Assembly (NCBI GenBank): GCA_947459425.1
Contig: CANHDJ010000002.1
Coordinates: forward strand, 1 to 60,050
DNA from: Ignavibacteria bacterium
Lineage (GTDB): Bacteria; Bacteroidota; Ignavibacteria; Kapaibacteriales; UBA4661
Length of the DNA stretch: 60,050 nt
Direction: 5' to 3'
The position numbers were made by a program, and so were the translations under genes. A model generated the notes under the pieces. The model was not told the origin of the DNA. It saw only the letters and a program-made list of their open reading frames with translations, and did no database searches. Of the stretch, positions 39,268-43,871 are shown piece after piece; within the stretch, counting starts at the first letter, position 1; each line of letters starts with the position of its first letter.

Positions 39268-39308
39268 AAGGTGTAGTCCGCTTCAAGACGTGGACTACAC
39301 CTTTTTTT
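39268..39308 (+). terminator. Rho-independent terminator after lon
   Basis: A perfect 12-bp stem (39268-39279 with 39292-39303, AAGGTGTAGTCC) with a 12-base loop runs into seven T residues. It lies in the 75-base gap between the convergent lon and VWA-lipoprotein genes. The stem is nearly identical to those at 5724 and 28130. Confidence 0.92.
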
Positions 39309-39312
39309 GACC

Positions 39313-42300
39313 TCACCGCGCAATAATCGCAAATTCCGTCCGGCGATTTTTCTGGCGGTCTTCTTCGGTCTCATTTCCGGCGACGGGCTGCGAAAGCCCC
39401 AACCCTTTCGAGCGCAGACGCTCCGCCTTCACGCCCCGCTCCACGAGTGCCTGCACGACAGCCGCAGCGCGGAGTTCCGACAAGCGTTGGTTAAACTCAT
39501 CGCCGCCAATATTGTCGGTGTGTCCGCGTATTTCAATGCGGATGCGCGGCGCTCCCAAAAGCGCTCCGGCGATTGCATCCAGCATTGGTGCTGACTCGGG
39601 GCGCACATCCACTTTTTTATAGTCAAAATAAATCTTTGTGGTCGAAAAAACGGTGTTCAGCGTGTCGAACATATTAAACGGCGATTTGTCCAATTCAAAC
39701 GACGCAAGAAGATCTTTACCGCTTCGGCGCTTGCCATTGCGGTCATAACCGTTGGCATCAAACCCATTGCGGTCGTAGCCATTTTTGTTGAAACCATTCC
39801 GTGCAAAGCCGTTTCTGTCGAAGCCGTTGCGGTCATAACCATCTCTGTCAAACCCGCTTCCCGACTTGTGTTTGCCATTTTTATCGAAGCCGTTGCGGTT
39901 GAAACCGTTTTTATCGAACCCATTGCGGTCATAGCCGTCATCTCCAAAGGCGCTTCCTGACTTGTGCCGACCATTTTTATCAAAGCCATTGCGGTCGAAG
40001 CCGTTGCGGTCATAGCCGCTTATGTCAAAACCATTGCCATCAAAGGCGCTTCCCGACTTGTGTTTGCCGTTTTTATCGAAACCGTTACGATTGAATCCAT
40101 CTTTGTTGAAGCCATTTTTATCGTAACCATTGCGGTCAAAACCATTTTTATCGAAGCCATTGCGGTCATAACCATTACCATCAAACCCGCTTCCTGACTT
40201 GTATTTACCGTTTTTATCGAATCCATTACGGTCAAAGCCATTCTTGTCAAAACCATTGCTATTGAAGCCGTTTCGGTCAAAACCATCACCATTTAAGCCG
40301 TTTCTATTGCGACCATTGCCATCAAAGGCGCTTCCCGATCGGTGTTTTCCATTAGCATCGAAACCATTGCGGTCGTAACCGTTTTTATCGAAGCCATTGC
40401 GGTCGAAGCCATTGTTGTCAAAACCGCTCGCATTCCAGCCGTTTTTATCAAAGCCATTGCCATCAAAACCGCTCCCTGACTTGTGTTTGCCGCTACTGTC
40501 AAAGCCATTTTTGTCAAAACCATTTGCATCAAAGCCATTTTTATCGAAGCCGTTGCCGTCAAAGCGGCTTCCATTCTTGTTATTTCCGTTGCGGTCAAAG
40601 CCATTTTTGTCGAACCCATTTGCATCAAAGCCATTTTTATCGAATCCGTTGCCGTCAAAGCGGCTTCCGTTCTTATTGTTCCCATTGCGGTCAAAGCCGT
40701 TGCCATCAAAGCCATTGCGGTCGTAGCCGTTCTTATCAAACCCGTTACGGTCAAAGCCGTTTTTATCAAAACCATTGCGATCGTAGCCGTTGCGGTCAAA
40801 ACCATTCTTGTCAAAGCCGTTTTTATCGAAACCATTTTTATCAAAGCCATTGCGGTCAAAACCATTCTTGTCAAAACCATTTTTATCGAAACCATTTTTA
40901 TCGAAACCATTTTTATCAAAGCCGTCTTTATCGAAGCCATTTTTATCGAAACCGCTTGTGTTTAAGGCGTTTTTGTCCTTGCCATTTTTGTCTTTGCCGC
41001 CTTTATTAAACCCATTTTTATCGAAACCACTGCGGTCAAAGCCGTTTTTATCATAACCATCTTTATCAAAGCCTGTATCATCAAAGGCGCTTCCGTTCTT
41101 GTGTTTGCCGTTTTTGTCGAACCCCTTGCGGTTGCGCCCTTGCTTGTCGAAGCCGTTGGGGTCAAAACCGTCGCGGTCGTAGCCATCGCGGTCGTAGCCG
41201 TTAATATCAAAGCCGTCTTTATCGAAGCCATTCTCATCAAAGCCAAGATCGCCGTCGCCGCGTGTTCTCAGGGCAATTTTTACGGTAGTTTTTCCAGCAA
41301 ATGGCGTTGGTGAATAGGTAATTTTGTAGAAATTGCGAAGGCTCTCGTAAATATCCTTGAAAGCCGATTGAAACTCTTGTTTCGAGCGAATCTTGTAAAA
41401 CTTACCGCCCGTGTACTGCGCAAGCGCCGTCAGCGTTGAATCATTGACATAGCCAAAGCCAACGGGAAAAATACGCACGTTATTGGCACGGGCGTAGGCG
41501 TAGAGTTCGGCATCGGTGGTTTTAGAGGCGTTGTCCTCGCCGTCGGTGAAGACGACGAGCGCACGGGGCGTGTTGATATTGGTGGTTTTGAGTAAGTCCA
41601 CCGATTCTTTCATCGCGTCGTAAAGCGCGGTATAAAGTCCGTAGCCCTTGAGGTCGTTGTTGCGGAGCGCAGAGTCAAGCTGGCGGAGATCGGCGGTGAG
41701 TTTTCGCTCAACGGTGATTTTCTTATCAAATTTCGCAATAGCAATGCGGTCATTCGGGTATTTCATCTTGACAAACATCCGCGCTGCTTCCAGCAAATAC
41801 TGGACTGCACCTGCCATTGAGCCGCCGTGGTCGAGGGTGAGTGCGAGGGCGTAGGTGATAGAATCTTGGTCGCCATATTCACGCACGACGTAATCCTTGA
41901 CTTTGACAGTATCGCCACCGAGAATCTGCGTAATACCCGACCAATAGCGCTTATAGGAGCCTGCGCCTTTGTAGTAGGGGTCTGCCATGCCGGAAATAAA
42001 ATTTCCCGATGAGTCCAGAACACGAGCAAATACGCGGACTTCCTTTGGATAGTCTTCCGACTCAACTTTCCAAACGTCCAGCACCAAAGCATCGGGGTCG
42101 GCTTGGTCAATGGATTTTTTGCCCGTGATATAGATAGGGCGTTTCTCGGTGGAGTCATTCGCCGATTCAGCGCTGAGGGCAAATTCCCGTGTTCGAGAAC
42201 TCCCACAGGCGCTCAAAAAGAGGGTCGTACTGCAAAGAATAGCGAAAAGAAGCGAGAAAAGCAAGGCAGGAAGCGGCTTGCGCAACAAGGACGTTTTCAT
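39313..42300 (-). CDS. Lipoprotein with VWA domain, about 100 F/Y-D-x-N-G pentapeptides and C-terminal OmpA domain
   Basis: 995 residues. A lipoprotein signal ends in LSAC (Cys32). A von Willebrand A domain follows (about 145-325): DHGGSMAG (157-164, MIDAS with Gly159 for the usual first Ser), GLYTALYDA (221-229) and VVFTDGED. Residues about 353-861 are a near-perfect pentapeptide array of F/Y-D-K/R-N-G type (overlapping DxNGxD, like calcium-loop acidic patterns). The last 115 residues are an OmpA/MotB domain (IYFDYKKVDVR, IEIRGHTDNIGGDEFNQRLSELRA, NRRTEFAI) that should bind peptidoglycan. The layout suggests an outer-membrane lipoprotein whose VWA part is joined to the wall by a long repetitive stalk; this is inference. 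Confidence 0.9.
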   Translation of the reverse strand: MKTSLLRKPLPALLFSLLFAILCSTTLFLSACGSSRTREFALSAESANDSTEKRPIYITGKKSIDQADPDALVLDVWKVESEDYPKEVRVFARVLDSSGNFISGMADPYYKGAGSYKRYWSGITQILGGDTVKVKDYVVREYGDQDSITYALALTLDHGGSMAGAVQYLLEAARMFVKMKYPNDRIAIAKFDKKITVERKLTADLRQLDSALRNNDLKGYGLYTALYDAMKESVDLLKTTNINTPRALVVFTDGEDNASKTTDAELYAYARANNVRIFPVGFGYVNDSTLTALAQYTGGKFYKIRSKQEFQSAFKDIYESLRNFYKITYSPTPFAGKTTVKIALRTRGDGDLGFDENGFDKDGFDINGYDRDGYDRDGFDPNGFDKQGRNRKGFDKNGKHKNGSAFDDTGFDKDGYDKNGFDRSGFDKNGFNKGGKDKNGKDKNALNTSGFDKNGFDKDGFDKNGFDKNGFDKNGFDKNGFDRNGFDKNGFDKNGFDKNGFDRNGYDRNGFDKNGFDRNGFDKNGYDRNGFDGNGFDRNGNNKNGSRFDGNGFDKNGFDANGFDKNGFDRNGNNKNGSRFDGNGFDKNGFDANGFDKNGFDSSGKHKSGSGFDGNGFDKNGWNASGFDNNGFDRNGFDKNGYDRNGFDANGKHRSGSAFDGNGRNRNGLNGDGFDRNGFNSNGFDKNGFDRNGFDKNGKYKSGSGFDGNGYDRNGFDKNGFDRNGYDKNGFNKDGFNRNGFDKNGKHKSGSAFDGNGFDISGYDRNGFDRNGFDKNGRHKSGSAFGDDGYDRNGFDKNGFNRNGFDKNGKHKSGSGFDRDGYDRNGFDRNGFARNGFNKNGYDRNGFDANGYDRNGKRRSGKDLLASFELDKSPFNMFDTLNTVFSTTKIYFDYKKVDVRPESAPMLDAIAGALLGAPRIRIEIRGHTDNIGGDEFNQRLSELRAAAVVQALVERGVKAERLRSKGLGLSQPVAGNETEEDRQKNRRTEFAIIAR
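39718..41244 (-). repeat. 15-bp coding tandem repeat array (pentapeptide stalk)
   Basis: About 1.5 kb of imperfect 15-bp units encode F/Y-D-K/R-N-G. Every 32 or 47 residues a K-H-K-S-G-S-x linker inserts two extra residues, so the array is built of blocks of six or nine pentads plus two. Linkers start at residues 399, 541, 573, 605, 652, 699, 746, 778, 810 and 857. Such DNA is prone to length change by recombination or slippage. Confidence 0.95.
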
Positions 42301-42940: not shown

Positions 42941-43871
42941 ATGGGAAAAATACGCATACCAATACTGAGCAGTGAGCAACAGAGCGTCTTAGAGGATGGC
43001 TATGGTCACGGCAAAAAGGCGAGTTTTCGCCGACGATATCAAATGATTCTTCTCAAAGCGCAAGGACGTACCTCTGAGGATGTCGGTAACATTCTTGGTG
43101 TATGTGCTGTTTCGGTCAATACATGGCTTGACCGTTGGGAAGCCGAAGGCATTGCCGGACTGAAGAACCGTCCTGGGCAGGGCAAGAATCCGATTTTTGA
43201 AGTCGCCGATGCGCTTATCCTGACCGAAGCGGTGAGAGGATAATCGGCAACAACTCAAATTGGCACGTATTGCAGCACAAGTCGCTCTGAAGAAGGAGTT
43301 TTCGCTCAAAACCCTCAAACGCTTCGTAAAAAAAACGACTGCCGATACAAAAGCCTCCGCAAACGCCCACGTTATGCGCCCGATGCAGAAGAATACGCTG
43401 GCAAAGCAGAGAGCCTTGCCACGTTGGAACACCGTGCCGAAGAAGGGGTCATTGACCTTTTCTATGGCGATGAGGCAAATGTTTCGGAGCGAGCAACCGT
43501 CCCATATGCTTGGTAGTTTACCGACGAGAAATAGACCGCATTTACGCCAACAACGCAGGGGGCTTCCGTGAGTTGTTTTGCCTTGGTCTCTCGTGATAAT
43601 CGTTCGCACATCGCCAGGACCGAAAAGCGCATTGATGCTGCCTTTATCTATGAGCAACTTGATATTTTATTTGCCGAAATATTCTCCGCATTGGAATATT
43701 GCCGAACATCTCTGGAAGCATCTCAAATACTTCTGGTTGCAGCCGCAGATCTACACTTCAAAACAACTCTTATTTTATAGCGTTTCTCTGGCGCTGGCTG
43801 CATTTGGAACACTCCTAACCATTGAATTTTCAAAATTCGGGGTACAAGTAGAATCATTTAGAACCGTTTAA
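42941..43871 (+). pseudogene. Decayed IS630-family transposase
   Basis: Homology is split over two frames. 42941-43243 carries the N-terminal HTH part (GRTSEDVGNILGVCAVSVNTW). A frame change near 43240 gives LARIAAQVALKKEFSLKTLKRFV, and another near 43335 returns to RPRYAPDAEEYAGKAESLATL and DLFYGDEANVSERATVPYAW with the first catalytic Asp. 43568-43660 gives SRDNRSHIARTEKRIDAAFI. The segment with the second Asp (usually near DNAPIH) is missing, and the next frame joins directly to FYLPKYSPHWNIAEHLWKHL with the third acidic residue. So at least three frameshifts and one internal deletion have occurred. No terminal repeats could be defined. Confidence 0.82.

Follow-up and report, generated by a model that had tools for sequence, protein, structure and literature searches.

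A near-constant pentad array at the VWA-OmpA joint of a Kapabacteria lipoprotein, a candidate compact spacer

In a 60,050-nucleotide stretch of an Ignavibacteria bacterium genome (contig CANHDJ010000002.1, positions 1 to 60,050; hereafter "the window"), we analyzed a gene for a 995-residue predicted lipoprotein in which some 500 residues of five-residue units, of the general form [FY]-[DN]-x-x-G, lie between a VWA domain and a C-terminal OmpA domain. The reading that we favor, tentatively and at a probability of about 0.42, is that this array is a periodic rod that acts as a compact, length-conserved spacer in a tether between the outer membrane and the peptidoglycan. In such an arrangement, a lipid on Cys32 would hold the protein in the outer membrane, with the VWA domain near the membrane end, and the OmpA domain would grip the peptidoglycan at the other end. 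The ancestral protein would have had its VWA domain joined almost directly to OmpA; in one Kapabacteria lineage, an array of ~500 residues would then have been placed in the joint and kept at near-constant length. Most likely a compact periodic rod, the array would fix or extend the distance that separates the VWA domain from the peptidoglycan anchor. The "wall" to which the initial annotation had anchored the protein would be the peptidoglycan of a Gram-negative-type envelope, as the lipobox and the OmpA domain suggest. That annotation had also described the lipobox with Cys32, the VWA domain, the pentad array, and the C-terminal OmpA domain, and all four are present as judged from the sequence and from Pfam (PF00092 and PF00691).

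The array fills 505 residues between VWA and OmpA and, by a relaxed pattern, contains 96 five-residue units that end in G. Strict [FYW][DN]xxG units number 80, versus a mean of 6.2 and a maximum of 14 in 1000 residue shuffles. The initial description as a tandem pentapeptide array thus stands for the stretch from residue 354 to 858, but not as one unbroken run: nine seven-residue segments of the KHKSGSA type, which we refer to as "clips," interrupt the pentad phase. By unit counts, position 5 is fixed as G and position 2 as D/N. Most units in each of the eight groups counted start with F/Y, and a K or R fills position 3 in 65 of 81 units of the window array as well as in the majority of units from the cellular groups. 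Position 4, which is N in 66 of the 81 window units, varies among relatives, being D in 73, E in 53, and N in 52 of 256 Syntrophomonas units (178 of 256 together) and K in 28 of 119 archaeal units. At clip position 2, counted at 12-residue steps, a His occurs in 6 of 9 window clips; in 5 of 9, 6 of 8, and 6 of 6 clips of relatives; in 8 of 9 in Ichthyocystis; and in 4 of 4 in Caryophanon. A GIHxxT form of the clip is found in archaea and Fusobacterium, and neither form was found in four Syntrophomonas loci. Super-periods were apparent at lags of 3, 5, and 8 pentads in Syntrophomonas (z ≤ 5.3) and at a lag of 2 pentads in Nitrosopumilus (z = 5.2). The groups examined had no lag in common, and hence we claim no coil size.

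We searched 61 genomes, the window's own included, all of which match some part of the protein at E ≤ 0.001 when one-domain matches are counted, and measured linker lengths in 13 order-level loci, out of 51 order-level genomes in the search. The distance from VWA end to OmpA start was 0 to 11 residues in 11 of these 13 orthologues, 36 in G024, and 102 in G016, and all 13, with 0 to 3 strict pentad matches each, are without the array. Because they join the two domains by 0 to 102 residues without it, the array is, on this sequence comparison, an insert into the joint of an ancestral VWA-OmpA protein. Within the genus, we saw it in the window genome (G000), G002, G003, and G007, where the VWA-OmpA stretch measures 516 residues in the window and 514 in G007. 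Two members of the same family, G008 and G009, have N-terminal pieces that end in G/N-rich stretches, and G001 yielded only matches of ≤34% identity. In the window genome itself, a full-length match occurs only at the array gene; 12 other matches cover the OmpA part alone.

Array length is similar in the four species. Identical cut points gave 506, 504, and 501 residues in three of them. The G003 array is split over two contig pieces, one of 298 and one of 208 residues, whose printed ends have 18 nt in common, and comes to about 500. Between G000 and G002, the array shows a synonymous divergence (dS) of 0.338 and a nonsynonymous divergence (dN) of 0.018, i.e., a dN/dS of 0.053 over 500 codons, compared to 0.081 for the OmpA region. 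Between G000 and G007, synonymous change in the array is saturated (proportion of synonymous differences, pS, 0.91) and yields no ratio, with dN/dS values of 0.075 for VWA and 0.111 for OmpA. Upon aligning the pentads of G000 and G007, we obtained an agreement at positions 1 to 4 of 0.63 in register versus 0.49 to 0.54 when shifted, and the N-terminal piece of G003 gave 0.44 versus 0.30 to 0.39. Since agreement is mostly higher in register than shifted, the array seems to change more by substitution than by unit turnover, a picture of selection and turnover for which the basis is four species and a single pair in which synonymous change is unsaturated. These data bear on the idea that the array grew neutrally, as low-complexity sequence expanding by slippage, and has no selected role, an idea that would account for the differing low-complexity stretches at the joint within this family of bacteria and for a close relative, G006, that carries no array. 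The purifying selection in the G000-G002 pair speaks against such growth, as does a length that stayed similar in four species despite the saturated synonymous change between G000 and G007, and we consider it very unlikely.

The repeat also occurs in other organisms. Among named genome contigs, a scan for the pattern yielded 139 matches, of which 11 were confirmed, comprising two near relatives (Ignavibacteria bacterium, L045, and Candidatus Kapaibacterium sp., L046), four Syntrophomonas/Syntrophomonadaceae, two Nitrosopumilus, Candidatus Ichthyocystis, Caryophanon latum, and Microbulbifer. The Microbulbifer locus (L055) was dropped, its KDKNG repeats lying in an apparent transporter. The genome of Candidatus Ichthyocystis hellenicum (G338) holds 37 matches at E ≤ 1e-6, several per gene, in two chromosome stretches, with four array frames inside the 10 kb of locus L053; PMC4943182 notes repetitive motifs, which may be these pentads, in some Ichthyocystis gene families. 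In Nitrosopumilaceae, 18 of 151 genomes match at 1e-10, the best match lying within an open frame of 249 to 285 amino acids in 13 of the 18 and of 106, 159, 231, 304, and 614 amino acids in the other five. Eight of these proteins that we aligned (L051, L052, and L090 to L095) are stand-alone chains of ~250 amino acids, almost wholly repeat, with constant ends, one central GIHxxT clip, and no internal gaps. Because a mere linker would not need such gapless conservation, these archaeal copies argue that the array is more than that. By eye, the archaeal and Caryophanon array proteins appear to have no export signal, nor is a signal peptide evident in the archaeal ones. Sampling 296 genomes of the window's own phylum gave matches at 1e-10 in 2; the array-bearing G002 and G003 apparently lay outside the sample.

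Mobile and viral sequences carry similar units as well. The window array matched 3 phage records and 41 plasmid records, and five places among these matches were inspected, in Calothrix, Edwardsiella, Gordonia, Euzebya, and Fusobacterium. We kept the last three, Fusobacterium as a variant, and discarded Calothrix, where the match lies opposite an annotated pentapeptide-repeat gene, and Edwardsiella, a GRHRAG-like match opposite annotated genes. The Gordonia plasmid protein has N-terminal pentads followed, by eye, by membrane segments. A scan of viral contigs with the window array alone gave no confirmed match, which reflects a limit of the query, since a mixed alignment of 18 pentad runs (A3) matched 69 loci, some sharing a contig. 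At least six strict pentads occur in 57 of these 69, and the remaining loci are weak. Among nine viral-contig proteins scanned for domains, one (L136:1891-4185) also carries an amidoligase-like domain and another (L102:2491-4170) a PI3/PI4-kinase-like domain. An array whose aromatic and basic residues bind a glycan, peptidoglycan, or nucleic acid, with the clips marking binding sites, would fit the aromatic position 1 in all eight groups, the K/R at position 3 in most cellular-group units, and the clip His in Kapabacteria, Ichthyocystis, and Caryophanon; given contexts too varied to indicate one ligand, we regard such a role as improbable.

For the fold, we ran AlphaFold2 on the window protein with a three-sequence alignment (job 1). 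The best of five models, at a mean predicted local distance difference test score (pLDDT) of 40.9, assigned the pentad run of residues 451 to 540 block values of 68 to 83 in a five-residue pattern, with a predicted strand pair on each F-D, while the VWA domain fell mostly, and the OmpA domain wholly, below 50. The local confidence that this model gives to the pure run lends some support to the reading of the array as a compact rod, though we take neither folding job as proof. The 50 listed PDB structure matches of the model were of VWA type, of OmpA type, or, for some, apparently due to chance, and none was for the array. A second job on 90 residues with an 18-row alignment (an alternative alignment, A2, was too gapped and was not used in folding) gave a pLDDT of 94.2 (92.9 to 94.2 over five models) and a predicted template modeling score of 0.67; its model had one BFVD match, at E = 0.56. 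If coiled at 15 to 20 residues per 0.48-nm turn, as a beta-solenoid-like rod might be, the 505 residues would measure 12 to 16 nm. As a random coil, they would have a computed radius of gyration near 8 nm, and their contour length comes to 182 nm. According to PMC8824477, 30 to 32 nm separate the inner from the outer membrane in wild-type E. coli under hyperosmotic conditions. A fully stretched stalk would seem too long for the gap between outer membrane and peptidoglycan.

Several observations weigh against a compact, length-conserved rod. The other four job 1 models reach a mean pLDDT of only 29 to 32, and the job 2 model, for all its high pLDDT, came without DSSP output and without a Foldseek match in the PDB. 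AlphaFold2 is moreover reported in PMC11795689 to build beta-solenoids that are unrealistic, though confident, when given perfect repeats; of 78 random sequences of this kind, 32 came out as beta-solenoids, many of them confidently. Unlike the test sequences described there, the window array is an imperfect repeat. Charge-hydropathy analysis places the array on the disorder side, together with an archaeal pentad protein and a GS linker, whereas VWA and OmpA fall on the folded side. For the C-terminal piece of G003, the agreement in register (0.462) barely exceeds that of one shift (0.454). The close relative G006 has no array, its VWA and OmpA domains being joined on one contig by a 35-residue linker; in a tree of the OmpA region, it falls within the array clade with weak support (0.73), and the array has likely been lost there, to judge from these sequences. 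Lastly, a GSGSGND repeat resembling a flexible linker occupies the same joint in both pieces of G004 and in the C-terminal piece of G005, in stretches that run off contig ends.

Much of this evidence would suit a disordered hydrophilic tether, a flexible, charge-balanced chain with a radius of gyration of about 8 nm, by which the OmpA domain finds the peptidoglycan at a variable distance and of which only the composition matters. Such a tether would be expected below the charge-hydropathy boundary, where the array indeed lies with its GS-rich alternative; the GSGSGND repeats of G004 and G005 could serve in the same way; and simulations that PMC8824477 cites describe flexible OmpA linkers that adjust to the gap. 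What it fits poorly are an array length that hardly varies and a conservation that is mostly in register between species, the regular clips, and the archaeal stand-alone proteins that are almost wholly repeat. We take it as a serious contender that comes next in likelihood after the compact spacer. As to the spacer, the idea of the initial annotation that the stalk holds VWA at a set distance from the wall is borne out in part: array length is near-fixed in four species, but since the order-level orthologues and G006 are without an array, the basic protein does not need that distance.

The array fits no described family that we searched, in agreement with the initial annotation: it matched no Pfam family at E ≤ 10, gave no match in PHROGs or NCBIfam at E ≤ 1, and found four PDB matches that were all at E = 0.18 or worse. 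A literature text search found no description of the pentad repeat, though one may exist, since subscription literature was mostly outside its coverage; eight-letter array strings had no text match, and shorter motif words matched, among the papers listed, literature on antibodies, chitinases, Rhs proteins, bacteriocins, and similar. In its lipobox, VWA, and OmpA domains, the window protein resembles VWA-OmpA and OmpA-family envelope lipoproteins such as YiaD, YfiB, and Pal, which are among the PDB sequence matches of its OmpA domain, and differs from VWA-OmpA lipoproteins by the 505-residue array where the 13 array-less order-level orthologues have linkers of ≤102 residues. With pentapeptide-repeat proteins it shares the five-residue period, but, as initially noted, it has none of their A(D/N)LxX units (no A[DN][LF] motif) and no Pfam match, and position 4, which would face inwards in the pentapeptide-repeat fold, is variable and sometimes bulky in relatives.

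The initial annotation had likened the array to acidic calcium loops, in which DxNGxD units would bind Ca2+ and stiffen the stalk. The Asp/Asn/Gly-rich array does contain the overlapping pattern, with 53 matches to D.[ND]G.D. Yet it is not acidic: 90 K+R balance 87 D+E, leaving a net charge near zero. Patterns tried for EF-hand, thrombospondin type 3, and RTX repeats each gave 0 matches, the absence of an RTX pattern having been stated from the outset, and no Pfam match to these or other families was found; position 4 is not kept as N in relatives; and some members are, by eye, without an evident export signal. On charge balance, free position 4, and absent patterns, we set calcium loops aside as the leading idea and consider a calcium-stiffened stalk quite unlikely.

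Among known repeats, a likeness was also seen to DotG/IcmE of the Dot/Icm type IV secretion system (NF033900), which shares the Gly-aromatic steps. Profile A3 matched the IcmE/DotG chain at 1.9e-18 over the whole chain (best single stretch, 3.6e-4), and NF033900 scored 2.6e-6 on Caryophanon and 0.0056 on Nitrosopumilus, far below its 750-bit cut-off. DotG differs in its ten-residue unit of the AGFSAKELKD type, and the window array itself matches neither Pfam nor NCBIfam. The "Decapeptide" family PF25296 (cut-off 45 bits), which we take, as an unconfirmed guess, to be built on DotG-like repeats, gave 33.4 bits for Syntrophomonas L047, 16.3 for Gordonia, 43.3 for viral array L111, and 52.6 for viral array L115, the last exceeding the cut-off as a whole with no single stretch passing. 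PF25296 matches in the window's own genus were all below the cut-off and were not retained; the one inspected, L057 (G000:C40), is a protein with a different repeat of ~26 residues (EYGVLGIRPEYVKEMK type, by eye) that is unlike the pentads. PMG (PF05287; cut-off 29 bits), presumably a Gly/Tyr-rich hair protein, matched both viral arrays above its cut-off (L111, 62.3; L115, 68.8), over only about 50 to 60 residues of the C-terminal part of the profile, and left the window array unmatched; we read these matches as shared Gly/Tyr-rich composition. Overall, the matches of relatives to DotG, PF25296, and PMG possibly reflect a distant DotG link or shared composition rather than membership, and DotG repeats may be a distant branch of the pentad repeat class. 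The window array belongs to this [FY][DN]xxG class, of which only a part has the Gly-x-His clip. It is conceivable, though we would not bet on it, that the class is an uncatalogued one of bacteria, archaea, and viral contigs, in which a compact rod with five-residue steps and a His-bearing clip as phase-shifting joint has come to serve in some cases as a protein by itself and in others as a ruler of fixed length within a tether from outer membrane to peptidoglycan.

If the array folds, its simple repeat, which several bacterial phyla, archaea, and viral contigs share and which no family model matches in the window copy, would amount to a new structural module. Because one joint holds the array in some related species and a short linker or another repeat in others, nature provides a comparison by which one can test how the distance from outer membrane to peptidoglycan is set in bacteria.

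Table 1. Features of the array gene and its surroundings, in window positions with residue numbers of the protein.
Feature	Window position	Strand	Basis
Whole gene, 995-aa lipoprotein	39313..42300	-	Open reading frame; coding frame inferred from pS >> pN in array
Signal peptide with lipobox LSAC, Cys32 (residues 1-32)	42205..42300	-	Sequence; processing inferred
VWA domain (156-314)	41359..41835	-	Pfam PF00092, 7.2e-11
Pentad array (354-858), mainly [FY][DN][KR]NG	39727..41241	-	Sequence pattern counts
Uninterrupted run of 18 pentads (451-540)	40681..40950	-	Sequence
Clip 1 KHKNGSA (399-405)	41086..41106	-	Sequence
Clip 2 NNKNGSR (541-547)	40660..40680	-	Sequence
Clip 3 NNKNGSR (573-579)	40564..40584	-	Sequence
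Clip 4 KHKSGSG (605-611)	40468..40488	-	Sequence
Clip 5 KHRSGSA (652-658)	40327..40347	-	Sequence
Clip 6 KYKSGSG (699-705)	40186..40206	-	Sequence
Clip 7 KHKSGSA (746-752)	40045..40065	-	Sequence
Clip 8 RHKSGSA (778-784)	39949..39969	-	Sequence
Clip 9 KHKSGSG (810-816)	39853..39873	-	Sequence
OmpA peptidoglycan-binding domain (891-986)	39343..39630	-	Pfam PF00691, 4.9e-21
Terminator-like 14-pair hairpin between convergent lon gene and array gene	39268..39303	.	Pattern match only

The minus-strand frame was taken as coding because the array, between two species, has a pS of 0.272 versus a proportion of nonsynonymous differences (pN) of 0.018. Both flanking domains score above their Pfam gathering thresholds (VWA, 43 bits versus 23.8; OmpA, 75.3 bits versus 27.2). 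The peptidoglycan-binding Asp and Arg of the OmpA family lie in GHTD and LSxxRA motifs, and the OmpA domain of the window protein has their predicted counterparts in GHTDN (residues 926 to 930) and LSELRA (940 to 945). A complete metal-ion-dependent adhesion site (MIDAS) reads DxSxS, which the VWA fold does not require in full; in the window protein, the MIDAS-like DHGGSM (residues 157 to 162; window 41815-41832, minus strand) is incomplete, Gly replacing the first Ser, and further VWA motifs with Thr and Asp are present (GYGLYTALYDAM and FTDGEDN). DHGGSM is common to several orthologues, with DxSGSM in its place in G037, G058, and G060. The convergent neighbor was identified as lon by both Pfam and NCBIfam, and short plus-strand open reading frames near the array gene (window 42941-43571) resemble, by eye, a split transposase.

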